From Flavihumibacter petaseus NBRC 106054 (lineage in GTDB: Bacteria; Bacteroidota; Bacteroidia; Chitinophagales; Chitinophagaceae), in contig NZ_BBWV01000003.1 of assembly GCF_000974785.1 (NCBI RefSeq), positions 124,001-188,000 on the forward strand: a stretch of 64,000 nt of DNA, in the 5' to 3' direction. The translations under genes were made by a program, and so were the position numbers. Position 1 is the first letter of the stretch, and every line of letters starts with the position of its first letter. Shown piece by piece: positions 6,579 to 28,388 of the stretch. Below the pieces are notes generated by a model. The model was not told where the DNA came from, made no database searches, and saw only the letters and a list, made by a program, of their open reading frames with translations.

Positions 6579-7646
6579 ATGAAGCAGTGGTACGTTACGC
6601 CATTATTCCTGTTGTTCCTGCTGCCGGGTTTAGCACAGGTCCGGTTTTACGATGCCGTTGATTTTCCCCTTCTCGGGAAGATCAACGATAGTACGGAGAC
6701 CCGCTATGAACGTCTGCCCGCTTCATTGAAAGGTATAAGCCGCCAACCGGTATGGGAGTTGGGAAAGAATACCTCGGGGCTGGCACTTCGTTTCCGGACG
6801 AACAGTACCAGCATCGCAGCGAAATGGAAAGTGCTGAATGATTACAGCATGAACCACATGACCGCTACAGGAATCAAGGGGCTGGACCTGTATGCCTGGA
6901 CCAACGGGAAATGGCAGTTTGTGAACAGTGCGCGGCCCGGGGGCAAAAGCAACCAGCAGACCATCATATCCCATATGGCAGCCGGCGAGCGGGAGTACCT
7001 GCTTTACCTGCCGCTATATGATGGGGTAGTGGGGTTACAGGTCGGCGTTGACTCAACAGCCTTTATCGGAAAGCCTTTGTTGCAGTTGCCATCTACCCAA
7101 AACCCGGTCGTCTGTTATGGCACCAGCATCACGCAGGGCGGCTGTGCCACCCGGCCCGGCATGTCTTATACCAGTATCCTGGAACGAAAGCTGAACCGTG
7201 AGGTGATCAATTTGGGATTCAGCGGCAATGGCCGCCTGGACTATGAGATTGCAGAGCTGATGGCGCGCCGTACCGATGCCGGGCTTTTTATCCTGGATTT
7301 TATTCCCAATGTAACGCTGGAAGAGGTGCAGGGCAGAACGGCAACCTTCATCCGGAAATTGCGCGCGCACAACCCGGAGATCCCGATCCTGATGGTTGAA
7401 TCCATCATATTTCCCCATTCGTTATTTGATCAACAGATGTTCAACACCGTAACCGACAAAAACAAGGCCCTGCGCAAGGAATATGAGTTGTTGCGAAAAA
7501 CAGACAGGAACATCTATTATTTGTCCGCCGCAACACTCATCGGCACCGACGGCGAACCAACCGTTGACGGCATTCACCTGACCGACCTCGGGTTTTTAAG
7601 ATTCTCCGATGCGCTGCAGCAGGTCGTGCGGCGGATTATTCGGTAG
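6579..7646 (+). CDS. SGNH/GDSL esterase with N-terminal GxDLY domain
   Basis: A 355-residue secreted esterase. Residues 1-19 form a signal peptide. The N-terminal beta domain contains GIKGLDLYAW, the GxDLY signature of the SGNH_N domain. The C-terminal catalytic domain has the nucleophile block PVVCYGTSITQGGCA, the GFSGNGRL block, and the Asp-His pair in VDGIHLTDLGF. Such two-domain enzymes deacetylate sugars or polysaccharides. It is last in the operon, 8 bases after the AGE gene, and complements the sialate esterase at the other end of the cluster. Confidence 0.85.
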   Translation: MKQWYVTPLFLLFLLPGLAQVRFYDAVDFPLLGKINDSTETRYERLPASLKGISRQPVWELGKNTSGLALRFRTNSTSIAAKWKVLNDYSMNHMTATGIKGLDLYAWTNGKWQFVNSARPGGKSNQQTIISHMAAGEREYLLYLPLYDGVVGLQVGVDSTAFIGKPLLQLPSTQNPVVCYGTSITQGGCATRPGMSYTSILERKLNREVINLGFSGNGRLDYEIAELMARRTDAGLFILDFIPNVTLEEVQGRTATFIRKLRAHNPEIPILMVESIIFPHSLFDQQMFNTVTDKNKALRKEYELLRKTDRNIYYLSAATLIGTDGEPTVDGIHLTDLGFLRFSDALQQVVRRIIR

Positions 7647-7831
7647 TTAAGTTCTTCCTGTTTTCCCCGGCGATGACCCGCTGCATTGCTATAATAAATC
7701 AAAAATCTTTTCGAAGGGACGACAGCACTTTGGATGCAGCGAAATCAATTGTCAGACACAATGACCGAAAACATCAAATCAATTGAACACCCCGGTCAAA
7801 TGAAATGCGTACCGGGCTGCTATTTTTCAGC

Positions 7832-8113
7832 ATGGAAAATTATAATTCGCTGATCGAAGCGCTCGAAGAACTCCGGAAGAAAGGATACACAACGGATTTT
7901 TCTGCTTCCGAACTGAGTTTACATACAGACGAATTTACTATCGACGCGGTCTACAGGTTCGAAGTAGACTCGGATCCCGGCAACGACGCTGTCCTTTACG
8001 CCATCTCCGACGCCAGCGGCAGGAGAGGTACCGTAGTGGACGGGTATGGCGTTTACAATGACCACCTGAGCTTTGAAATTGCCAGGCACCTCCATAGCGC
8101 CATCACCCTGTGA
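7832..8113 (+). CDS. Small conserved protein, often labelled phosphoribosylpyrophosphate synthetase-like
   Basis: A 93-residue acidic soluble protein. A longer reading starts at 7805, but MENYNSLIEALEELRKKGYT at 7832 is the usual start for this Bacteroidota family of about 95-105 residues. The family pattern is seen: a short helix, a basic GYTTDF, then FRFEVDSDP, AVLYAISD and a VDGYGVYND ending. Databases often call these proteins phosphoribosylpyrophosphate synthetase, but at this size they lack the PRPP-binding loop and the enzymatic name is doubtful. It is a single gene between the glycan operon and the histidine kinase. Confidence 0.65.
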   Translation: MENYNSLIEALEELRKKGYTTDFSASELSLHTDEFTIDAVYRFEVDSDPGNDAVLYAISDASGRRGTVVDGYGVYNDHLSFEIARHLHSAITL

Positions 8114-8169
8114 ACCGGCCATAAACAATATCTTCGTCTGGCGGCCACTGAATCACTGCCAGGGTAACT

Positions 8170-10578
8170 ATGCGAAAGAAAAGTTTCATTGGAGTTTTGC
8201 CGATCTTATTCGCCCTCCCGCTGTTCGCCCAGCGCGGCGCCTCATCGCCCGCTGACTCAGCATGGCTGCATAACATCCCGGCCTCCAAAAGAAACCCGGC
8301 AGAAGTGCACCGGCTCATCGACCTGAGCAACCAGTACATCAACAAAGAAGGAGAAAATATAACCGACCTCGATATGGCCTGGCAACTTGCCGCTAAGGCC
8401 GGAAAACTCAGTCAACACCTGCAGTATGACGCTGGCTACCAGCAATCCCTCCAGGCCCTCTGCCTGACGCAGATCGAAAGAGGCGATAGCCGGTCCGCCT
8501 GGAAGCTCATCGAACAGGCCCAGGACTCTACCAAGGCGGAAATGCTCTACGCGTTACAGCGCTATTATTTCTACGGCGGACAAATCAGCCAAAGCCTCGA
8601 CAGTTCCATCCTGTGCCTGGAAAAAGCTGCCACCATAGCAAAATCGCACGGTTTTGTTGCTTTGGAATTTCATGTGCGCAGTGACCTGGCCACCAGGTAT
8701 ATCGACGCCCGGAAAAACGCCAGCTTTACCGAACAGCAAGCCCGCGTCGTTCAACTGCAAAAAAGCGTTTCATCCAGGGCGCTCCTCGGCCACTACGAAA
8801 ACGTCGCCCTGTATTTGTTTAACAATGGGGTGTACCGGCAGTCCCTCGACATGGCGTTAACCGGGCTGCGGCTTTCAGAAGACAACAAGGCGCTAAAAAC
8901 AGATTTAAGTACTGCAGCACTCTACAACCTGCTGGGTGTGATCCATTTTACTGAAAAGCAATACCAAAAGAGCATCGATGCGCTCACCAGGGCCTGGGAA
9001 ATCTACAAGGCGGCTGGTGAAACCAACAGGATCTGGAATGTTTGCGAATCAATGGTGTACGACTATATTTACCTGAAGGAGCCGGAAAAGGCACTAGAGA
9101 TCATCGAACGAACGCTACATGAAGTTGGCTATACCAACACGAACGAGGAAATCGCATACTTGCGGATCCTGTCGTACTTCCAGCAGAAAACGGGACAGGC
9201 CGTCCTGACAGAGCAGACCATCAACCGCCTGGTGACCCTGGTTGAAGAAACCGGGATCATCGACGCACAGCTGTACAACCGGATCGCCAACTTCTACCTG
9301 GAACGGAAGGCATTCAGTAAAGCACGTTACTACCTGGAGAAAGCAGTGGTGCAACCAGGCACCCCGCCCCACTTCCAGGCTTCCGTTAACCGGTCACTAT
9401 TCTTCCTCGACTCTGCTACCGGCAATTATCTTTCCGCCATTCAATACCTCCGCCGATCCCAACAGCTGGATGACTCCATGAATAACCTTGATAAGGAAAA
9501 ACAAATTCGCGGACTGCTGGTGCAATATGAAACGGAAAAGAAAGACCGGGACCTCCGCCTGAAAGAACAATCGATCACGCTGCTCTCCCGGCAAAGCGAA
9601 CTGCGCCAGAAAGACCTGGAACGCGCACGGCTTGAGCTGGATTATGAAACGCGCGACAAACAGCAGCAGCTCCAGATGGCCGGCATGGAAGCCAGGGCAA
9701 AAGACAAAAATATCCAGCTGCAGAAAAAGAATATCGAACTGCTGGAGAAAGATGGCCAGCTGCAGCGCAACAATCTCCAGCAGGCCAACATCACGCGCAA
9801 CCGCAGCGTTGCCGGGGCCGTGTTATTGCTCATTATCCTGCTGCTGGTATACAACAGTTACCGCCTGAAGAAAGCCGCCAGTGTTGAGCTGGACAAAAAG
9901 AATGGCAAACTCGAGCGGCTGATCAATGAAAAGGAACTGCTGCTCCGGGAAGTACACCACCGGGTAAAGAATAATTTGCAAACAGTGGTCAGTCTGCTGG
10001 AACTCCAGGCCGATTCGCTGAGCAGTGATGCCCTTGCCGCGATCCAGGCCAGCCAGAACCGGATCTATGCCACTTCACTGCTGCACCAAAAGCTCTACCA
10101 GGATGACACCATCTCGTCCGTCAACATGAGAAGCTACCTGCCGGAACTGGTTTGCCACCTGAAACAGGCTTTTCACGTGCGGAACGAAATTGAATTCACG
10201 GTGAACATCGATTCCATCGACCTGGATGTGTCCCAGGCGGTGCCGGTCGGCCTGATCGTAAATGAAGCCATTACCAACTCTATCAAATATGCGTTTCCGG
10301 ATGGTCACCCGCAGGCACGGATCAGCGTGTCGCTGGCGACCCATGCCAACGGAACAGCCCTGCTGGATATTGCCGATAACGGCATAGGGCTTCCCGCCGG
10401 TGTCGAAAATGGCACGACAGGTTTGGGACTCACCCTGGTAAAAGGACTTGCTGAAGACATCGATGGCGAACCCCATATTGCTTCGGTGAACGGAACAAAA
10501 GTGTCCGTCCGCTTTAAAACAATGGCACCGCTGGCAACCATCAACAATCCGTTAAATCCTTCAAATTTGCAGGCATGA
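8170..10578 (+). CDS. TPR-containing membrane sensor histidine kinase (HisKA_2 type)
   Basis: An 802-residue sensor with a signal peptide (residues 1-20, cut after LFAQ), a periplasmic array of TPR-like helical repeats to about residue 430, a long charged coiled coil (about 435-540), and one membrane helix near 550 (AGAVLLLIILLLVYNSY). The cytoplasmic part has the HisKA_2 box LREVHHRVKNNLQTV near residue 595, with the phospho-accepting His, and an HATPase domain with NEAITNSIKYAF (N box) and DIADNGIGLP and GLGLTLVKGL (G boxes). All catalytic boxes look intact. It overlaps the next gene by ATGA, so that regulator is its probable partner. Confidence 0.9.
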   Translation: MRKKSFIGVLPILFALPLFAQRGASSPADSAWLHNIPASKRNPAEVHRLIDLSNQYINKEGENITDLDMAWQLAAKAGKLSQHLQYDAGYQQSLQALCLTQIERGDSRSAWKLIEQAQDSTKAEMLYALQRYYFYGGQISQSLDSSILCLEKAATIAKSHGFVALEFHVRSDLATRYIDARKNASFTEQQARVVQLQKSVSSRALLGHYENVALYLFNNGVYRQSLDMALTGLRLSEDNKALKTDLSTAALYNLLGVIHFTEKQYQKSIDALTRAWEIYKAAGETNRIWNVCESMVYDYIYLKEPEKALEIIERTLHEVGYTNTNEEIAYLRILSYFQQKTGQAVLTEQTINRLVTLVEETGIIDAQLYNRIANFYLERKAFSKARYYLEKAVVQPGTPPHFQASVNRSLFFLDSATGNYLSAIQYLRRSQQLDDSMNNLDKEKQIRGLLVQYETEKKDRDLRLKEQSITLLSRQSELRQKDLERARLELDYETRDKQQQLQMAGMEARAKDKNIQLQKKNIELLEKDGQLQRNNLQQANITRNRSVAGAVLLLIILLLVYNSYRLKKAASVELDKKNGKLERLINEKELLLREVHHRVKNNLQTVVSLLELQADSLSSDALAAIQASQNRIYATSLLHQKLYQDDTISSVNMRSYLPELVCHLKQAFHVRNEIEFTVNIDSIDLDVSQAVPVGLIVNEAITNSIKYAFPDGHPQARISVSLATHANGTALLDIADNGIGLPAGVENGTTGLGLTLVKGLAEDIDGEPHIASVNGTKVSVRFKTMAPLATINNPLNPSNLQA

Positions 10579-11936
10579 AAAAGATCCTCATCGTGGAAGA
10601 CCAGTTCGTTGAGGCGGCTAACCTGGAGCGTATGCTGGTGAAAGCAGGCTATTCCGTTTGCGGAATTGCCCGTTCCGTAAAAGCAGCGCTGGATATCCTG
10701 AACTCCGTACGGCCCGATTTTGTGTTGCTGGATATCTACCTGAAAGGGGACCAGACCGGCATTGAGCTGGCTGGGATATTGAAAGAACAGGGTATCCCGT
10801 TTTTGTATTTATCTGCCAATTCCAATAAGTCCACACTCGATGCAGCCAAGGCAACACGCCCATACGGCTTCCTGGTAAAACCTTTTCGCGAACAGGACGT
10901 GCTGGCCATGATGGAGATCGCAGCCTACCAGCAGGAGAACCGGCATCAGCCTGCAGCAATAGGAGGATCGCCGGAAACTCAGGTTGCAGACATTGTCGGC
11001 GGGAGTGAAGCGCTGCAACAAACCCTCCGGCTCACAGGCATTGTTGCGCCTTCCGATACCACGGTGCTCATCCTCGGGGAAAGCGGAACTGGTAAGGAAA
11101 AAATAGCATCCGCCCTTCACCTGTTGTCCCGCAGAAAAAACAACCCGTTCATTAAAGTGAATTGCGCTGCCATGCCGGCATCACTGGTTGAATCCATCCT
11201 GTTCGGTCATGAAAAAGGAGCATTCACCGGGGCCACCAGCCGGGCGATCGGCAAATTCGAACAGGCACATGGTGGCACCATCTTCCTCGATGAGATCGGT
11301 GAAATGTTACCGGAGGTTCAGGTGAAGATCCTCCGCGTATTGCAGGAAAAAGAGATCGAACGGATCGGGGGAAGAGAACTGATCAAAACGGATGTGCGGG
11401 TGATCGCTGCAACGAACCGTAACCTGGAAACGGAAGTAGCGGAAGGAAGATTCCGGATGGACCTTTATTACCGGCTCAACGTTTTCCCGATCCAGGTAGC
11501 ACCATTGCGGGAAAGGAAGCAGGATATCATCGCGCTCACGGAACATTTCATCCGGCAATATTGCCAGATCGAAGGCCGGGAACCCATCCAGCTTCAGCCT
11601 GCACTCCGTGAGAAGCTGCTGGGCTGGCACTGGCCCGGCAATATCCGGGAACTTGAAAATGTCGTCAAAAGAATTGTGTTGCTGGGTGCTGAATCCGGAA
11701 GCGACTTCATTCATTATTCCGGGAACAATATCGCCCCGGTTGCCGCGTCACAAACCCTGCAGGAGAACGAGAGAGCCTATATCATATCCACGCTGAAGCA
11801 ATGTAACGGGAAGATCAGTGGCGCTGGTGGCGCTGCGCAACTCCTGAACCTGCCTGCCAGCACACTGGAATCAAAAATGAAAAAACTCGGCATAACGAAG
11901 GAAGATTATGCACCGGCCACGGGATCAGGCAACTAA
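10575..11936 (+). CDS. Sigma-54-dependent response regulator (NtrC family)
   Basis: A 453-residue regulator in three parts. The receiver domain (1-120) has the acidic pocket E8/D9, phospho-acceptor D53 in VLLDIYLKG and Lys102 in LVKPF. The AAA+ domain has Walker A GESGTGKE at 168-175, the sigma-54 contact loop GAFTGA at 215-220 and Walker B IFLDE near 236-240. A Fis-type helix-turn-helix lies at the C-terminus ([19 protein letters not shown]). It should activate sigma-54 promoters when phosphorylated by the upstream kinase. No obvious -24/-12 promoter was recognised close by. Its 3' end overlaps the convergent AraC gene by 12 bases. Confidence 0.92.
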
Positions 11937-19910: not shown

Positions 19911-20522
19911 ATGAGAATATTCATTATCAACGGGGGACAGGTATTCGCACATTCCGGCGGGCTGTTTAACAATACCCTCGCAGGCTGGACCACTGCCTTC
20001 CTGGAGCGCGAGGGCTTTGAGGTGCGCATTTCGAATATTAATGATGAATTCGATCCCTTCGCCGAAGTAGAGCATTTCAAATGGGCTGATGTGGTCATTT
20101 ACCATACGCCGATATGGTGGTTCCAGGTGCCCAACCGGTTGAAAAAATACATTGACGATGTGTTTACAGCAGGCCACCAGAACGGGATGTACACCAGCGA
20201 TGGCCGGAGCCGCACCAACCCGGCGATCAATTACGGAACTGGCGGATTAATGCAGGGCAAAAAATATATGGTCACGACTACCTGGAATGCCCCGGACACG
20301 GCCTTTACCCTACCGGGAGAGTTTTTCGGGGAAACCTCAGTGGATGATGGCGTATTGTTTGGGTTCCATAAAATGAACCGCTTTGTGGGCATGGAACGGA
20401 TCAATGGTTTTCACTTCCATGACCTTGAAAAGAATGCCACCGAAGAACGCATTGAAAACTACCGCCGGGACTATACCAGGCATTTAAAAGCAGTATTTAC
20501 CAGCGAAATGCAATTATCATGA
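19911..20522 (+). CDS. mdaB: MdaB-like NAD(P)H:quinone oxidoreductase
   Basis: A 203-residue flavodoxin-fold reductase (Flavodoxin_2). The start MRIFIINGGQVFAHSGG, the strand WADVVIYHTPIWWFQVP with LKKYIDDVF, the MVTTTWNAPDTAF segment and the FVGMERINGFHFHD ending match MdaB, a FAD-dependent two-electron quinone reductase. It overlaps the next gene, an ABM-domain monooxygenase, by ATGA. The same pair (mdaB, ygiN) lies side by side in E. coli, where the products are thought to form a quinone redox cycle. Probably under control of the divergent LysR. Confidence 0.85.
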   Translation: MRIFIINGGQVFAHSGGLFNNTLAGWTTAFLEREGFEVRISNINDEFDPFAEVEHFKWADVVIYHTPIWWFQVPNRLKKYIDDVFTAGHQNGMYTSDGRSRTNPAINYGTGGLMQGKKYMVTTTWNAPDTAFTLPGEFFGETSVDDGVLFGFHKMNRFVGMERINGFHFHDLEKNATEERIENYRRDYTRHLKAVFTSEMQLS

Positions 20523-20806
20523 ACATTTATTTAACAGCAATCATCACTGCGAAGCCGGAGCATCACCAGGAAGTCCTTGCGGTGTTGCAAAATATGGTAA
20601 GCCAAAGCAGGAAGGAAGAAGCCTGTATCCAGTATGACCTGCACCAGGGAACGGAGAACCCTGATGTTTTCATCTTCTATGAAATCTGGAAGAGCAAAGA
20701 GGGGTTGGCTGCGCACAACCAGCAACCCTATATCCTCGAATTTGGTCGTCTGGTACCGGAGAAACTACAGGAACCCCCGGCAATATACCTGGCTCATAAA
20801 ATATAG
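20519..20806 (+). CDS. ABM-domain monooxygenase (YgiN-like)
   Basis: A 95-residue single-domain protein of the antibiotic biosynthesis monooxygenase family. It has the ferredoxin-like pattern with AIITAKPEHHQEVLAVLQNM, a QYDLHQGTENPDVFIFYEIW central strand and AAHNQQPYILEF. Small ABM proteins of this kind, such as YgiN, oxidise quinols without a cofactor. It is translationally coupled to the mdaB-like gene. The 267 bases after it hold no gene that I can support, only weak short hairpins. Confidence 0.82.
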   Translation: MNIYLTAIITAKPEHHQEVLAVLQNMVSQSRKEEACIQYDLHQGTENPDVFIFYEIWKSKEGLAAHNQQPYILEFGRLVPEKLQEPPAIYLAHKI

Positions 20807-21073: not shown

Positions 21074-22294
21074 TTAAAGTCCAAGCTTCAAACACATTTC
21101 CTGATCAATTTCATTAAAAATCGAAGGGGGCAGGTAAAGTGTGGAAATGCCGGTAAGGTCTTCTTTTCGAATGGTGTCAAGCGTGCTCTTAATTATTTTA
21201 GGTCGACCCTGGGGTAATGATGCTGCCTCGTAGATAAATACCGGGTGATCTGCCGGGTAAAATTTCTGTAGCTGATTAATAAGTATGTCAAAATTATGCC
21301 GTTTATATCCTGCAAAATTGAACCCCGGATCACCTACACATTCAGCTTGCCACACCAGTAAATGTGATGAAGTATCCGGTACACGCCGGTGAATCAGGAA
21401 TTCTGTAGCTTCAAGTGAATGGCAGCCTGGCTGGGATGGATCAATACCAAGGTCTGCAAAAAGTGATGCATCGGCCGAAACCGAAGCATGCATTTCCGCC
21501 TTGAAACCATCTCTGCGAGCTACTCTTATGGCCTGGTGTGTAGGCCAGGCAAAACTCCCCGGATGTCCATAAAAAACTCCGCATACCCGTAAGCCAGCTC
21601 TTACAGGAGCAAGCAATGCATCCACCATAGCATGGTAGGTCTCGATACGGGGTTTATTGTTACCATACAGCCCGTATAACGATTCAGCGGTTGAATTCAG
21701 TAAGTGGAGCCGTCGTTCAATTACCGGGTCGGCTACACAATACAAAACTTTTTGGGCCGTCCGTATCTGGGCTTCAGCATCAAAGGTCAGATCAGCAATA
21801 GCCCGGATGCCACTACCAACAATAACAAGTTGTCCGGCTTTGCGCGATCGGCCTTCCTCGAAGTAACGAATGGCTTCTTCAACAATGTCGATTGTTGTGA
21901 AATCGCCCGGAAATTTGTTGTGCGTGGTGGTTGTGGTGGTATCGCTGGTTGTCGTTACAAAATCTGTTGTGTTAGAAGTAAATGTTGTGCTGGTAGAACT
22001 GTTTGCAGTGTATGTGCTGGATGTATAGGAGTTCATCGAAATGGACATAGGCTGCTGACTTACCTGGTCTGCAGGATTGAATTTATCGCTAACAACAGGT
22101 GAAAGGCCTGCCCGTTCCAGTTCCCGCACCGCCTCGATTCGTATGGCACCCGAATGACCCCTAAGAATAAGATTCGTAAGCTCCTGGGAAAGGCCGGCTT
22201 TTTCAAGGTATGCAACAGGATTTTCTGTAAAAAGCTCAAGTTTGACCGGGTCTGCAAGACTGGCAAGAAAATCAGTAAGTGGTGTATCAGGCAT
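21074..22294 (-). CDS. Borosin-type peptide backbone N-methyltransferase with fused N-terminal precursor/binding domain
   Basis: A 406-residue protein in three parts. Residues about 5-62 are a small helical LigA-like domain (FTENPVAYLEKAGLS, LILRGHSGAIR), like the borosin binding domain of split-borosin precursors such as SonA. Residues 84-126 are almost entirely Ser/Thr. Residues about 154-392 are a tetrapyrrole-methylase-fold SAM methyltransferase very like fungal OphMA and bacterial SonM: VIVGSGI, YCVADP, catalytic Y207, Y210, R216 and Y220 (LYGLYGNNKPRIETY), GVFYGHPG at 239-246, LFADLGIDPSQPGC, and ISTLYLPP. No clasp domain follows. Known relatives alpha-N-methylate the backbone of a ribosomal peptide. 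Order BBD, S/T segment, enzyme is the reverse of the fungal order. A cobalamin role is unlikely: no such genes are near. It is last in a five-gene operon with PatA/PatG-like proteins. Confidence 0.82.
   Translation of the reverse strand: MPDTPLTDFLASLADPVKLELFTENPVAYLEKAGLSQELTNLILRGHSGAIRIEAVRELERAGLSPVVSDKFNPADQVSQQPMSISMNSYTSSTYTANSSTSTTFTSNTTDFVTTTSDTTTTTTHNKFPGDFTTIDIVEEAIRYFEEGRSRKAGQLVIVGSGIRAIADLTFDAEAQIRTAQKVLYCVADPVIERRLHLLNSTAESLYGLYGNNKPRIETYHAMVDALLAPVRAGLRVCGVFYGHPGSFAWPTHQAIRVARRDGFKAEMHASVSADASLFADLGIDPSQPGCHSLEATEFLIHRRVPDTSSHLLVWQAECVGDPGFNFAGYKRHNFDILINQLQKFYPADHPVFIYEAASLPQGRPKIIKSTLDTIRKEDLTGISTLYLPPSIFNEIDQEMCLKLGL
21917..22045 (-). other. Ser/Thr-rich segment between binding domain and methyltransferase
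   Basis: Codons 84-126 of the N-methyltransferase gene encode a stretch dominated by Thr and Ser, with a few Tyr, Phe, Asn and Asp and a final run of six Thr. It could be a flexible tether that lets the leader-like domain reach the active site, or it could itself be the methylated core. Nothing in the sequence alone decides this. Confidence 0.6.
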
Positions 22295-22357
22295 ATTCTT
22301 ACTTTTTTATGTTATATGGAATTCAAAAACCGTGAAAGAACATTTCATAGCGCTACC

Positions 22358-22648
22358 CTACCAGTCAAAGGGATTGCCACATGCTCCGCAGATATACCAT
22401 CCACTATCTTTTGTAATGACATTCAAATTACTGTCATACCCGCATGCGAAAATGTTATTGCACCACATCGTAAATAAAATACATTTTGTTTCCGTTCTTG
22501 AAAACGTGCAGTTCCTTCCCTGGGAGTTGTCTCCCCCTGTTAACCAATCCCAGAATCCCGCCGGGGACACGATTGCAGTTGATGGTAACTTTGTTGGAAC
22601 AGCGGTAAAACCAGGAAGCAGGCTCCCTGGGATCTCTGTATTTTTCAT
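22358..22648 (-). CDS. 96-residue six-cysteine peptide, candidate RiPP precursor
   Basis: A small protein in the middle of the RiPP-like operon, two bases after the 281-residue gene and 63 bases before the methyltransferase. The first 45 residues are Pro/Thr/Gly-rich (IPGSLLPGFTAVPTKLPS); the second half has six Cys at 47, 56, 63, 69, 87 and 90, aromatic residues and a C-terminal ICGACGNPFDW. The size and leader/core contrast fit a precursor peptide. The CxxC near the end could instead bind metal. It has no clear LigA-like binding domain, so if the methyltransferase acts on it, recognition would differ from SonA. Confidence 0.55.
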   Translation of the reverse strand: MKNTEIPGSLLPGFTAVPTKLPSTAIVSPAGFWDWLTGGDNSQGRNCTFSRTETKCILFTMWCNNIFACGYDSNLNVITKDSGWYICGACGNPFDW

Positions 22649-22650
22649 TG

Positions 22651-23496
22651 TTAAAAGGTTATATTGTAGTTAATAGAATTTGCTGCATGTTTTTTTGAAA
22701 TCACCAGGTAAGCTTTCCAGCCACATCCTTGCTGGTTAAATTTTAGCCCCAGGTAATTAAGCGCTGGTTGCCTTAATTTCCGGCAAAGCGATTTCATTTC
22801 TTTTTTTCTGCACTCCTGTGTAGTAAAACTATCAAGGCAAGTTCCGAAGTCACGGACAGATACTTTTGGATAACTGATCTTGATCGCCTTATCGGGTATG
22901 CCAATAGCCATATACTGAGGATGCCCAATGCCAGTCATGAAATCAAGTTTACAAAGCATGCTTTGTATTGCATCTGCAGGCCATTGCATCATCTCAGCAA
23001 TACCCGTCAGGATATTTTCTATTTCGCCAGCCGTTTTCCCTGAAATTTCATAGTATATCGAAACAGACATCGCTTCACTTCGATGAATCCTTATGCTAAT
23101 ACATACTGGCAGACCAATTGCATATTTTTTGGAAATCGCCACCGGGATAGTTCTCAACGCTTCATATCGCGCCAGGAGGTGAGCCATCGATTCCTCACTA
23201 ACTCCGGTTACATAGCGGAAATATAAAGTTTCATTGTTCGACTTGTTATTCTTCCAATCAACTTTAAAAAGAAAGGAAGTGGGTGCTGTTCGCTCCAGCG
23301 TTTCCTGTATCAATTCTTTCCACTGTTCAAATCCGTTCCGGCCAGTTGCACACTCGATGGATTTGTTGACAAAGCTTTTTGAATTCCCAAAGACAAGGGT
23401 TCCAAGTTTATCTGCATCTTCAGTCACACTGATCTCTACCAGGTCGAACAGCTGCAATCTGAATTTCTCCAAAAAAGGTTCTGAACTTGTTACCAT
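22651..23496 (-). CDS. Unrecognised 281-residue protein of the RiPP-like operon
   Basis: A soluble protein with no signal peptide or membrane segment. Alternating strands and helices appear, for example FLFKVDWKNNKSNNETLYF, ICISIRIHRSEA-like segments, IYYEISGKTAGEIENIL and YLGLKFNQQGCGWKAYLVIS near the end. The repeated strand/helix rhythm loosely recalls ABBA-fold prenyltransferases such as PatF, but I see no diagnostic motif and do not assign it. Gene spacing (21 bases upstream, 2 bases downstream) places it firmly in the operon, so a tailoring or carrier role is likely (inference). Confidence 0.7.
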   Translation of the reverse strand: MVTSSEPFLEKFRLQLFDLVEISVTEDADKLGTLVFGNSKSFVNKSIECATGRNGFEQWKELIQETLERTAPTSFLFKVDWKNNKSNNETLYFRYVTGVSEESMAHLLARYEALRTIPVAISKKYAIGLPVCISIRIHRSEAMSVSIYYEISGKTAGEIENILTGIAEMMQWPADAIQSMLCKLDFMTGIGHPQYMAIGIPDKAIKISYPKVSVRDFGTCLDSFTTQECRKKEMKSLCRKLRQPALNYLGLKFNQQGCGWKAYLVISKKHAANSINYNITF

Positions 23497-23517
23497 TTAA
23501 CGATGCTGTTGAAAATA

Positions 23518-24429
23518 TCAGGAATAAGATGCGTCCGTAAAGTTCAGCATAGCCAGGGGAGCTGTATCGGTCAGGTTTGCCCCCACAGTAAATGGCCATT
23601 CCTCGGTTACATCTACCTTGGTATATACCTGTTGTGGCACCCCTGTTAATCTGTCAATAAACCTAAGGATCACTGTCGCAATCCGCTGACCGGATGGTCC
23701 CTCCATTACCCTCGTATCGATCGACTCGAGGATGGCTTTCTCATCAAATTCCATGGCCGCCAGATATGGCCCGGGATGTTGAACAGCCAAATAATTGAGC
23801 GCTCTTTGGCCATCCATCGACCCAAGATTATCAGGCGAACCAACAATGGTGTAAAACACGTTTTTGCCCTTTTGCTGAAACACGCTCTTGTCCCATTTCC
23901 TGGAGCCGAGGATTTGTTTTACCTGGTTCACCAGGTTATCCATTAATTGTGATACGGTGAACACATATGCAACATCACAGAACATTTCCGGCGCAATGAC
24001 TCCATTTGTATGGGCAGGATCAGCCAATTGCCCTCTTTTACCAATGATCGTGATCCATTTTTCGTTATTTACTGGGTCGAGTGCATCAATCAGTTTTTCA
24101 AGAATAGATGAACCGGTTGGTCTCACGATGTAAGCAGGTATGCCATCGATCGACAGCACAAAACAGGAGAATTTTGCTATGTGGAAGTTTGCTGCAAGAA
24201 CCTGGGCTATACTTGCATTGCTGCCTTCAGATCCATGAAGCAATGCTCTTTGGCGTTGCTGAAACTCTCTCTCCAGGCCCATCGATGGCCACCTGACAGA
24301 TAACTTACCTATTGCATACACGTATTTCTCTTCCTGCAGTCCTTTTGATTTATTACAGGAACATCCGTCATGTTGTGTTGCCACCCGGGACAAATCAATA
24401 CTAGTCTGTACAGGAGTCTGGATTTCCAT
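23518..24429 (-). CDS. PatG C-terminal domain-like protein (stand-alone)
   Basis: A 303-residue protein that follows the C-terminal domain of cyanobactin maturation proteases PatA/PatG: an early Cys-x-Cys (GCSCNKSKG), then YVYAIGKLSVRW, FVLSIDGIPAYIVRPTGS, a late RALNYLAVQ, LESIDTRVMEGPSGQR, TGVPQQVYTKVDVTEEWPF and TVG. In cyanobacteria this domain is fused behind a subtilisin domain and its role is unclear. Here it is a separate gene 23 bases after the subtilisin gene, as if PatG had been split. It may position the precursor for cleavage or macrocyclisation (inference). Confidence 0.75.
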   Translation of the reverse strand: MEIQTPVQTSIDLSRVATQHDGCSCNKSKGLQEEKYVYAIGKLSVRWPSMGLEREFQQRQRALLHGSEGSNASIAQVLAANFHIAKFSCFVLSIDGIPAYIVRPTGSSILEKLIDALDPVNNEKWITIIGKRGQLADPAHTNGVIAPEMFCDVAYVFTVSQLMDNLVNQVKQILGSRKWDKSVFQQKGKNVFYTIVGSPDNLGSMDGQRALNYLAVQHPGPYLAAMEFDEKAILESIDTRVMEGPSGQRIATVILRFIDRLTGVPQQVYTKVDVTEEWPFTVGANLTDTAPLAMLNFTDASYS

Positions 24430-24452
24430 AATAGCAGGTTTATAAGTTTATA

Positions 24453-25352
24453 TTAGTTTTTTAACGAAAAGCATTTTTTATTGTTACGCAGAAATGTTTG
24501 TACATGTTTTATATTGAAGCACGGGGGTACTATGCTGCGTCTTCCCGCTGCGATGGAGTGGCTTTCGTAAATGACATCCCAGGCGTGATCCGCCTCCATA
24601 TGCAAATATTGCCTGGTCACCAGGTATCCTGCTGTAACAAATGCAGCAGCATAACTACTGCCACTTTCAAGCGTATATTCATTCGACGGTACAGCGACTG
24701 GTATGTTAAAACCAGGCGCCTGAAACCCCCGCAATCCTACGGTGTTCCCCAGGTTGGTAGTGATCAAATTCATTTGGTCCTGGTTATTTGAGCATACGGG
24801 TACCACTCCCGGTGTGGCCAAAACTTTATTATACCCGATCCTTCTACCATTACCAGTCGATACTATAATCCGAATACCATTTTCTGCAGCACATTGCATT
24901 GCACGGATGAGAAAGCAGAAGCCACCGGTATAATCAGGATTGAAATCAAGACTCATCTGGATAACCTGTACTTCTTGCTTCACCGCCAGCATAATGGCAT
25001 TGGAAAGCCGGAAGTCCAGGTCTTTGACGCCCAGCAAATTATTTGCCCACATGCGGTCGAGCACAGGGATGCAAATCAAGGTGGAGTCCTTGCATAGGCC
25101 CAGGGAATCTCCAACATTACCAGTCAGCATAGACGCAACTGCCGTTCCATGAAACTGGCTCGCCACATCAGGTTCACTGATTAATGAGCTATCCACAATG
25201 ATCCTGGCACCGGTAAAGCATTCATGCGACAGATCAGGCATACCATCAATGAGTGCCACACGACTTTGAGCTGCGCCTGGAAGCGATTCAATGTCATTTG
25301 GTAAGGCGTAGTTCCGCAGTTCGTTCTTCCTTTCTTGATATCCATTATCCAC
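24453..25352 (-). CDS. PatA/PatG-type S8 subtilisin-like protease
   Basis: A 299-residue serine protease without signal peptide, so cytoplasmic. The triad is visible: D36 in ALIDGMPDLSH, H68 in FHGTAVASM and S233 in LESGSSYAAAF (GSS in place of the usual GTS); the oxyanion Asn is N168 in STGNG. The VALIDG and PVLDRMW segments resemble cyanobactin PatA/PatG protease domains rather than secreted subtilisins. The start is a GTG directly after an in-frame TAA, so it cannot start further upstream. It is first in the operon and would cut, or cut and cyclise, the precursor. Confidence 0.82.
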   Translation of the reverse strand: MDNGYQERKNELRNYALPNDIESLPGAAQSRVALIDGMPDLSHECFTGARIIVDSSLISEPDVASQFHGTAVASMLTGNVGDSLGLCKDSTLICIPVLDRMWANNLLGVKDLDFRLSNAIMLAVKQEVQVIQMSLDFNPDYTGGFCFLIRAMQCAAENGIRIIVSTGNGRRIGYNKVLATPGVVPVCSNNQDQMNLITTNLGNTVGLRGFQAPGFNIPVAVPSNEYTLESGSSYAAAFVTAGYLVTRQYLHMEADHAWDVIYESHSIAAGRRSIVPPCFNIKHVQTFLRNNKKCFSLKN

Positions 25353-25914: not shown

Positions 25915-26030
25915 GGAAAAAACTACAAAAAGTCAATCCGTATTAATACGGGTTGCAAATTTCGGGTTCTGTTATTTCATTTGTTTCCGGTTGTTGCTAC
26001 CCAAAAACAACCAGACCAACAAACCTGTTT

Positions 26031-28388
26031 ATGCGCAGAAACCTTATCCTGGTGTGTACCCTGGTGCCATGCCTATATGGATATGCCCCCCGGCTTTCCG
26101 ACAGGAAAGATTCTGCTGCAAACCTTATCGACCACTTCCGGAAAATCGTTATTGTCATCCTTGTAGTCGTATTCGCCGGTACGCAGGCTTTTTGCCAGGA
26201 AAAATCAATCCCGAAACACGTTCGCGTGGTGCCGGTTCTCGACACCATCTGGAGCAATAACACTATTTGCAAGGCGCCATCCCCCATTCACTTTAAAACC
26301 GGGGATAAAGTTGTCCAGGTTGCCCAAAGGCAGACCACACCCGGGAAGCCGCTGCCGATCTCCATACATGGAAATGTTCAATACGATTTTCTCTACCGTT
26401 CTTTCATCGATACGCCCTATTCCCAAAAAGACTATCAACAGCATACTGTCCGGACCAACCTGACAATCACCGTCCGGGACCAGTATCCGATCCGGCTCAA
26501 TACCGCCCTTCGCCTTAGCAACTCACCCTGGTTCACCAATTTTTTTGATGTGGGCGCACAGTTCGATCAAAGTACTTATCTGAACCATGCAAAGCAGGCG
26601 TTGCTGGAAAAAGCCTCCAGGAAGTTGATGGCATTACCTGATCTGGATCAACTGCAACAGCAGATCCGGGACCAGGCCGATAAAATCAACGCATTAAAGA
26701 AGAAGTTTAAATCACCGGATCCCAACCAGCAGGTCATTAAAGACCGGGAAATGGAATTGTTCCGGCTGGACAAAGGTTCCGCTGAAACTCAATTGGCTGA
26801 TTTGTCGCTACCATCCGGGCTGGATGGTTTTGACAGGATAGTGCTCAACAAAGGAAAAGCTGCCCTGACAGACAATGAAAAATTGCAGCAGATTCAACGG
26901 GAAGCGAACCGCCGGCAGCAAACCATCGATAGCCTGGAAGCCGCTGTCCGTCAGCTGCAGGGCAAATATGACAGTCTTCAGCATAGTGTCGGCAGCAGGT
27001 TATCAAAACTTCGCCAACAGGTAAATAAAGCAAAGAGTTTGCAGGAATTAAATCAAATCGGCGAAAGCAATGAGCTGCCTGATGAAAGTACAGGCTTTAA
27101 AAAATTCCTGACGAATATAAAATCAATTGGTGTCGGCCGTACAATGATCAATTATTCCGAACTGACGGCGTGGAATGTGGCCCTGACCGGTGGGCATATC
27201 GAATACAACAAGAATATTTATGCTGCTGTGGCCGTGGGTAAGATTGACTATGGCTTCCGCGACTTTTTCAATAAAAATACCCGGCAGAACGGGCAACAAC
27301 TCGCCATGGTCAGGTTTGGTGTGGGTGACATCGACAGGAAGGCACTTATATTCTCTGTATTCAGCGGTCGGAAATATTCCTATGGCAGTGTGGTGTCTGA
27401 TTCCGTCAACAACTATGTGAATGTAATGGGGTATGCACTGGAAGCTATCCTGAAGAAAGACAACAATACCGGTGCTTCTGTTGAAGTGGCTAAAACGACC
27501 ATCCCCATGAGCGGTTCGTTTAAGGAAAACAATGGTTTGAACAGCCTGGTGAATTTCTCTGATCAGTCTAACCTGGCCATCAGTCTTAAGGGGCAGACGG
27601 TCATCCAACCCACTGATACGCGACTGAGCGGGTTTTTCAGGAAAAGCGGCGAGCATTTCCAGTCCTTCAGCTTATTCTCCTACAACACCGATCAGACAGC
27701 CTGGATGATTAAAGCTGACCAATCGCTTTTTAAAAACAGGATCGGCATCGTAGCCTCCCTGCGCAGGAATGATTTCACCAATCCCTTTACCGAAAAAACA
27801 TTTAAGACCAGTACAGTATTCAAAAGCTTCCAGGTTACTATAAGGGTACCAAAATACCCGGTGCTTTCAGTAGGATACTATCCTGGTTCCCAATTGTATA
27901 TCATCGACAAAGACAGGATCCGGGAGAATGCTTACTATGTGATGAATGCTTCGCTGATGCATCAATATAAAGCCGGTTCCGTCCGCATGTTGTCTTCGCT
28001 TTTGTATAACCGTTATGCTTCCAAAGGCACAGATACCGGCTTCATCGCCTATAGCGGCACCAACTATATGGCTGCTCAATCGGTGATCCTCCCCAAACTG
28101 CAATTGCAGGGCTTGTACATGTTTACCGACCAGGAGCAGATGCAATACAACACGATGGAATTATCCGGAGACTGGACAGTGTTACAAACTATACGGGTAG
28201 GGGCTGGCGCCAAATACAATAAAATCCTGGAGGGTGCCGGGTACTGGGGGGGGAGGGGCCAGTTGACGCTTACCCTCAAAGCGATTGGTATGCTCCAGTT
28301 TCAATACGATAAATCTTATTTACCAACGATATACCAAACCCTTTTTCCTGTAGAGATGGGAAGGGTTACCTGGACTAAATTTTTTTAA
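26031..28388 (+). CDS. Exported coiled-coil and outer-membrane-barrel-like protein of the RHS locus
   Basis: About 785 residues. A frame from 25953 is longer, but MRRNLILVCTLVPCLYGYA at 26031 is the better start. A strong hydrophobic segment near residues 38-57 (KIVIVILVVVFAGTQAFCQ) is the probable signal peptide and sits unusually far in. Residues about 180-330 are coiled coil (LDQLQQQIRDQADKINALKK). The C-terminal 400 residues alternate short strands with aromatic ends, like an outer-membrane beta-barrel, and end in TKFF. It is followed after two bases by the next gene and probably helps display or export the RHS proteins (inference). Confidence 0.65.
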   Translation: MRRNLILVCTLVPCLYGYAPRLSDRKDSAANLIDHFRKIVIVILVVVFAGTQAFCQEKSIPKHVRVVPVLDTIWSNNTICKAPSPIHFKTGDKVVQVAQRQTTPGKPLPISIHGNVQYDFLYRSFIDTPYSQKDYQQHTVRTNLTITVRDQYPIRLNTALRLSNSPWFTNFFDVGAQFDQSTYLNHAKQALLEKASRKLMALPDLDQLQQQIRDQADKINALKKKFKSPDPNQQVIKDREMELFRLDKGSAETQLADLSLPSGLDGFDRIVLNKGKAALTDNEKLQQIQREANRRQQTIDSLEAAVRQLQGKYDSLQHSVGSRLSKLRQQVNKAKSLQELNQIGESNELPDESTGFKKFLTNIKSIGVGRTMINYSELTAWNVALTGGHIEYNKNIYAAVAVGKIDYGFRDFFNKNTRQNGQQLAMVRFGVGDIDRKALIFSVFSGRKYSYGSVVSDSVNNYVNVMGYALEAILKKDNNTGASVEVAKTTIPMSGSFKENNGLNSLVNFSDQSNLAISLKGQTVIQPTDTRLSGFFRKSGEHFQSFSLFSYNTDQTAWMIKADQSLFKNRIGIVASLRRNDFTNPFTEKTFKTSTVFKSFQVTIRVPKYPVLSVGYYPGSQLYIIDKDRIRENAYYVMNASLMHQYKAGSVRMLSSLLYNRYASKGTDTGFIAYSGTNYMAAQSVILPKLQLQGLYMFTDQEQMQYNTMELSGDWTVLQTIRVGAGAKYNKILEGAGYWGGRGQLTLTLKAIGMLQFQYDKSYLPTIYQTLFPVEMGRVTWTKFF

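Follow-up and report, generated by a model that had tools for sequence, protein, structure and literature searches.

Five minus-strand open reading frames (ORFs) at 21074-25352 of a 64,000-nucleotide stretch of Flavihumibacter petaseus NBRC 106054 (contig NZ_BBWV01000003.1, positions 124,001 to 188,000; hereafter the window) place a borosin-type methyltransferase beside proteins resembling those of cyanobactin maturation. Does this locus join two chemistries of ribosomally synthesised and post-translationally modified peptides (RiPPs) in one pathway, as the original prediction proposed? The coordinates and the spacing of the genes, 23, 21, 2 and 63 bases in order of transcription, were reproduced. 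In this order the genes encode a PatA-like S8 protease, a PatG-domain protein, a predicted ABBA-fold prenyltransferase, a six-cysteine peptide and the methyltransferase. Homologues of all five proteins exist elsewhere, and four relatives keep the six cysteines of the peptide; the ORFs are therefore no chance products.

The locus is best explained, with a probability of roughly two in three, as two RiPP units arranged head to tail: a prenylated six-cysteine peptide cassette and a self-contained borosin gene. The first unit (22358-25352), whose enzyme families, catalytic residues and leader motif can be read from sequence or fold, recurs in other genomes without the second (21074-22294). The units may share a transcript and need not share a product.

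Predicted prenyltransferase, peptide and protease of the first unit

The 281-residue protein (22651-23496, minus strand) had been listed as unknown. It has indeed no Pfam or NCBIfam family (NCBIfam was searched up to E 10), and its profile gave only weak unrelated matches among PDB sequences, none of them of the PatF/PagF type. It is nevertheless identifiable, by its predicted fold, as an ABBA-fold (PT-barrel) prenyltransferase. The AlphaFold2 model, built with three proteobacterial homologues (predicted local distance difference test, pLDDT, 76.1; predicted template modelling score 0.76), contains ten long strands and repeats a strand-strand-helix-helix pattern. Foldseek found 110 PDB matches at E<=0.001; every one of the 50 listed is a prenyltransferase, with a best E of 1.5e-8. 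EpzP and a Streptomyces CL190 enzyme are at the top with template modelling (TM) scores near 0.6, and the list includes LimF, PagF and KgpF, with which the window enzyme would share the ABBA fold. Of the polar residues that do not vary among five homologues, most are on strands of the model (Glu21, Asp80, Thr90, Tyr92, Arg94, Arg136, Tyr148, Lys206, Tyr248 and Tyr263); Arg230 and Arg242 are off the strands. Unlike the cyanobactin prenyltransferases (PatF/PagF), the protein falls outside every NCBIfam family. Running its profile on 394 genomes of the host family and 245 genomes of Telluria's family recovered it in one (the window's own) and three genomes, respectively. Because this protein is a predicted prenyltransferase, the expected product of the locus changes.

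The 96-residue peptide (22358-22648, minus strand) has no Pfam family. Its six cysteines, correctly counted before, are at positions 47, 56, 63, 69, 87 and 90 and are kept in the four relatives, where the homologous peptides also adjoin the prenyltransferase; it is likely the precursor for this enzyme. The motif LPGFTA (residues 11-16, 22601-22618), similar to one found in 81 small ORFs, would serve as the leader for recognition of the precursor. VSPA (residues 27-30, 22559-22570) is a candidate cleavage region by analogy with [VILMA]xP[AQ], a motif of the broader group of peptides described below. The ABBA-fold enzyme would attach an isoprenoid to Trp, most likely to the C-terminal Trp96 (22361-22363): the peptides end with DW in all five cases with the prenyltransferase and with PF in all three homologues without it (L084, L094 and L103). 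Such an acceptor would resemble that of PalQ from Paenibacillus, which prenylates the C-terminal Trp of a ribosomal peptide according to the accessible part of PMC10853753. Unlike the window enzyme, PalQ is a member of the isoprene synthase superfamily, outside the ABBA fold, and its precursor carries an NHLP leader.

Regarding the removal of the leader, Pfam and PDB searches relate the S8 and PatG-like genes to proteins of cyanobactin maturation, as originally predicted. The S8 protein (24453-25352, minus strand, 299 amino acids, GTG start; Peptidase_S8 1.3e-8 in Pfam) has the cyanobactin N-terminal protease 4h6w as its best PDB match (1.6e-13), and the four best chains in the profile search of PDB are of the PatA-like kind (we take 3zxx, 3zxy and 4h6v to be PatA structures). 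The catalytic Asp36, His68 and Ser233 are present, with a spacing of 32 between Asp36 and His68. The PatG macrocyclase has an insert between Asp and His, and its chains score lower and align to the S8 protein only from roughly the catalytic His onward. The next protein (23518-24429, minus strand, 303 amino acids) consists of PatG_D and PatG_C (PF18047 9.5e-16, PF18065 8.4e-13) without a protease domain in Pfam, and is a probable partner of the S8 protease; its profile search against PDB sequences gave one weak unrelated match and nothing useful. The PatA-like protease, aided by this partner, would remove the leader, perhaps near VSPA, and leave a linear Cys-rich peptide, probably disulfide-bonded.

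The window thus resembles cyanobactin maturation in having a PatA-type S8 protease together with PatG_D/PatG_C domains. It differs from cyanobactin PatG in the lack of a macrocyclase domain, and its six-cysteine peptide is of another kind than the cyanobactin precursors. A YcaO heterocyclase is typical of many, not all, cyanobactin pathways; no YcaO gene was found in the window's genome by a search that was positive in 5 of 14 control genomes. Neither of the PatE recognition sequences for PatA and PatG, G(L/V)E(A/P)S and AYDG as given in the accessible text of PMC10885120, was found in the 96-residue peptide. A macrocyclase role was considered for the S8 protein, the single such gene in the set, and is unsupported, as the protein is PatA-like, PatG chains align to it partially and the peptide has no recognition sequences. 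The macrocyclic product suggested earlier was not borne out, since nothing found indicates macrocyclisation.

To find the cassette elsewhere we used a PatG-domain alignment scan of genome contigs and kept the best 80 of 87 loci. Three of the 80 (L025, L026 and L027) contain both the prenyltransferase and the peptide, and a fourth set (L113) came from the 245 genomes of Telluria's family. All four are proteobacterial and have S8, PatG-domain, prenyltransferase and peptide genes followed by a gene for an MstE-like cyclase. The window has the first four of these genes, with the methyltransferase at the place held by the cyclase. No MstE-like cyclase was found in the window at E<=0.1 by a search that was positive in the four relatives and at locus L108 of the same genome. 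When cyclases of two relatives were searched against PDB sequences, all five sequences matched each time were MstE, and the DADTT motif aligned in L113. In a tree of 83 PatG-domain proteins the window groups with the four cassette relatives with support of 100/100, apart from other Chitinophagaceae; its branch is long (2.91) and, according to a warning of the program, the bootstrap was still unsettled. A likely cause of this position is transfer between phyla.

RiPPs with polycyclic isoprenoids, NctPC and ChrPC, have reportedly been described by Hubrich et al. 2024. In the part of PMC13290415 available to us, NctPC unites an ABBA-fold enzyme and an MstE-like domain in one protein, with Trp prenylation followed by cyclisation. 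The window is similar in having an ABBA-fold enzyme of low similarity to the cyanobactin ones and a Trp-containing peptide, and the four relatives in having an MstE-like cyclase. Unlike in the NctPC fusion, the enzymes of the cassette are free-standing, and the window operon has no cyclase. L108 (contig C18, 91500-110500) is a second possible prenylation site of the genome: at 6678-11288 of the locus we noticed an MstE-like/SQHop_cyclase protein (8369-9382), a 357-residue protein with an Asp-rich stretch that by eye may be trans-IDS-like, a 70-residue ORF ending with GGGGW and, on the opposite strand, a radical SAM/SPASM gene.

In the literature covered by our searches, a set without the 2024 papers of Hubrich et al. 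and Lee et al., we found no description of a prenylated six-cysteine RiPP cassette. Within this literature, the cassette and the PGFTA leader class described below are the stronger new elements of the locus. Peptide prenyltransferases and N-methyltransferases are wanted as tools for drug-like peptides, and a compact cassette that itself encodes protease, peptide and ABBA-fold enzyme, present in two phyla and complemented by a terpene cyclase in the relatives, is a testable new system.

The fused borosin-type methyltransferase

The last gene (21074-22294, minus strand; TP_methylase 6.4e-17 in Pfam) encodes, judging from its sequence, a borosin-type alpha-N-methyltransferase of 406 amino acids. 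At E<=0.01 it matched 25 PDB sequences, each of them a borosin enzyme from a fungus or a bacterium, with E-values from 2.6e-63 (dbOphMA) to 1.5e-47 (a SonM mutant); the enzyme domain matched OphMA at 2.8e-63 to 7e-62 and SonM at about 1e-48 in the PDB sequence search. This agrees with the earlier assignment, and a cobalamin-type methylase was rejected, as none was among the 25 matches. The enzyme domain starts around residue 151. As in OphMA and SonM, the active-site Tyr/Tyr/Arg/Tyr set is kept: Tyr207, Tyr210, Arg216 and Tyr220 align with Tyr63, Tyr66, Arg72 and Tyr76 of OphMA, and with Tyr58, Arg67 and Tyr71 of SonM, the roles of which are given in the accessible text of PMC8429565. Active-site mutants of OphMA are named in PDB titles. 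All 50 Foldseek matches listed for the model are also borosin enzymes, which adds little given its overall weakness (pLDDT 63.5, TM-scores near 0.3).

Ahead of the enzyme domain, residues 1-62 (22109-22294, minus strand) form a stretch modelled as five helices (residues 5-61), as in SonA, which may be a borosin binding domain. The matches of the N-terminal part are weak, with E 0.36-0.46 for the SonA precursor (seven of the eight sequences listed) and 0.004, under the cut-off, for LigA in Pfam. Residues 66-133 (21896-22099, minus strand) are disordered, with pLDDT under 50, and their second half is rich in Thr and Ser (17 Thr and 5 Ser in residues 96-133). The modelled helices and the disordered stretch fit a binding domain and a core placed before the enzyme, and the Thr/Ser-rich stretch is a candidate core, the backbone amides of which would be methylated by the enzyme to which it is fused.

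Type 0 borosins were reportedly defined by Lee et al. 2024. In the part of PMC11395268 available to us, type 0 is a fused borosin with the core N-terminal and the methyltransferase C-terminal, and type XI is a fused borosin with an N-terminal domain of unknown function. The window gene has the core-then-methyltransferase layout of the former description and can be called type 0-like. On its own it is a further example of a known borosin kind; it differs from the known fused borosins in its Thr/Ser-rich candidate core and in adjoining a prenyltransferase/PatG-domain cassette.

Borosin-type genes were also seen in other surroundings. A relative from the same family (L022) has an equal fused layout in 428 amino acids, with an Asp/His/Val-rich stretch in place of the Thr/Ser-rich one. 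Within 4686-10279 of L022 this gene is found some 0.5 kb downstream of a further group of RiPP-like genes, which encode a small peptide whose end is rich in Cys, a radical SAM protein and a protein with weak similarity to C39 peptidases. Judging from these two cases, fused borosin genes may have a tendency to reside next to other RiPP genes. A locus from another Bacteroidota family (L014, 9705-10899) has a split borosin pair among histidine kinase-like genes, with a 282-residue methyltransferase and an 83-residue precursor whose tail is rich in Ser/Thr/Asn. Three further loci (L023 9484-11697, L024 7897-10107 and L106 8315-10528) encode borosin-type methyltransferases of 736-737 amino acids with a long C-terminal extension, adjoining several proteins of about 600 amino acids.

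Co-occurrence and readings that join the two units

We searched the ORFs of all 80 PatG-domain loci up to E 10 for the methyltransferase and found none, nor was it present in ten PatG-bearing genomes searched whole. The five methyltransferase loci outside the window, from four genomes, had no PatG-domain genes within the stretches fetched. For these reasons we consider the units probably independent. This lack of co-occurrence, which the original prediction itself named as a refuting observation, and the four genomes with the cassette and no methyltransferase speak against a joint borosin/cyanobactin pathway; the union of the two chemistries is the weakest part of the original claim. Moreover, the second unit carries its own binding-domain-like helices (in the model) and disordered stretch, and the peptide of the first unit, read directly, has no such domain. 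No system uniting borosin, cyanobactin and PatG chemistry appeared in the accessible text of the literature searched.

Both genes are sparsely distributed. The methyltransferase was found in 2 of 395 genomes of the phylum, 2 of 395 of the class, 3 of 244 of the family and 1 of 15 of the genus, in samples that overlap and each include the window's own genome. PatG_D was found in 5 of the 244 genomes of the family, again with the window's own included. Among plasmid records, 4 have a PatG-domain protein and 13 the methyltransferase; in the one plasmid region examined, the PatG-domain gene is annotated as a hypothetical protein.

Several points weigh against two separate units, or against parts of this reading. 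The shared strand, the gap of 63 bases and the opposite-strand genes on both sides fit a single operon, and the adjacency is unlikely to be mere chance because both the methyltransferase and PatG_D are rare in the family. The search of ten genomes had no positive control of its own, although the same query does find the window's copy in the genus search. The prenyltransferase assignment comes from a model of four sequences that are 20-24% identical, and the binding-domain match of the methyltransferase N-terminus is weak. Since two more Trp positions are common to the five peptides, the C-terminal acceptor is a choice that we infer.

Taken together, readings in which the two units make a common pathway or product are unlikely. 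We are similarly doubtful, and slightly more so, of one hybrid RiPP pathway in which ABBA-type Trp prenylation, PatA/PatG-domain leader removal and borosin N-methylation act together, with the borosin enzyme replacing the cyclase. A pathway with two precursors, in which the S8/PatG-domain pair would also free the Thr/Ser-rich segment from the fused borosin once it is N-methylated, would account for the strand, the short gap and the rarity of both genes; it would also supply the protease that fused borosins require to free the core, since one is encoded next door. We nevertheless consider it rather improbable, given the absence of co-occurrence (0/80 and 0/5) and of any PGFTA-like motif in residues 1-62 or 66-133 of the fused protein.

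Of the same low probability is the reading that the Thr/Ser-rich stretch is a mere linker and the methyltransferase has its substrate elsewhere or is a relic. The stretch is of low complexity and disordered, and KchMA, a fused bacterial borosin, is reported to prefer nonpolar residues in the accessible part of PMC11395268. However, the active-site residues are intact, the tail of the split precursor at L014 is also Ser/Thr/Asn-rich, and L022 has its Asp/His/Val-rich stretch at the same place. A single hybrid product, in which the methyltransferase acts in trans on the six-cysteine peptide so that it is N-methylated and prenylated before leader removal, is very improbable: although the methyltransferase gene directly follows the peptide gene, at a spot where relatives place another tailoring gene, the cyclase, the binding-domain-like region is in the enzyme and not in the peptide, and neither the 80 PatG-domain loci nor the methyltransferase loci showed a homologous peptide next to a methyltransferase of this kind.

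PxFTA leader peptides and the setting of the locus

The leader motif of the six-cysteine peptide belongs to a wider pattern at the PatG-domain loci. The strict motif, defined as [ILVMF]PxFTA close to the beginning of an ORF that is 30-200 amino acids long, occurs in 81 ORFs at 46 of the 80 loci, all on the PatG strand and none on the opposite strand; 98,605 bases of five control loci gave one match. The motif ORF lies downstream of the PatG ORF in 40 loci, with the nearest at a median of 39 bases and in 31 cases within 500 bases, and upstream in three. S8 matches are present in 75 of the 80 loci. A looser form, PxFSAE, was seen at L094 and L103, two of the 34 loci that lack the strict one.

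Letters were counted in a set of 81 peptides, from which duplicates had been dropped and in which two peptides with internal starts were included. Glu follows FTA in 53 of them. The second motif, [VILMA]xP[AQ], is present in 49 of the 79 peptides that are long enough, compared with 8.3 +- 2.6 (largest 15) in 500 shuffles. VSPA of the window peptide starts 16 residues after the start of the leader motif (20-37 in the others). Cysteines are distributed unevenly around the second motif, with 5 among 1377 residues before it and 299 among 2674 after it. Together, the PxFTA peptides look like a leader-plus-core class that would be processed by the S8/PatG-domain pair. Ten of them were scanned and gave no NCBIfam match and one sub-cut-off match in Pfam, so this is possibly a broad RiPP-like class without an entry in either database. 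Peptides of this type beside S8/PatG-domain pairs span many bacterial phyla and archaea (loci L028-L104). By title and abstract, the papers in which PGFTA strings were found deal with other peptides. The adjoining leader-motif ORFs suggest a substrate for non-cyanobacterial PatG_D/PatG_C proteins and make the class searchable.

Regarding the limits of the operon, promoter-like sites were fewer than in shuffles, terminator-like sites were about as many, and no Bacteroidota-type promoter pattern was found in the window. As these scans gave no signal above the shuffles, the limits are drawn solely from spacing and strand. The flanking genes on both sides are on the opposite strand. Downstream, plus-strand genes at 20519-20806 and 19911-20522 border the set; a flavodoxin-fold protein and an ABM-family protein are encoded on this side, followed by a LysR-type regulator. 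The upstream neighbour (25953-28388) is a plus-strand gene of 811 codons.

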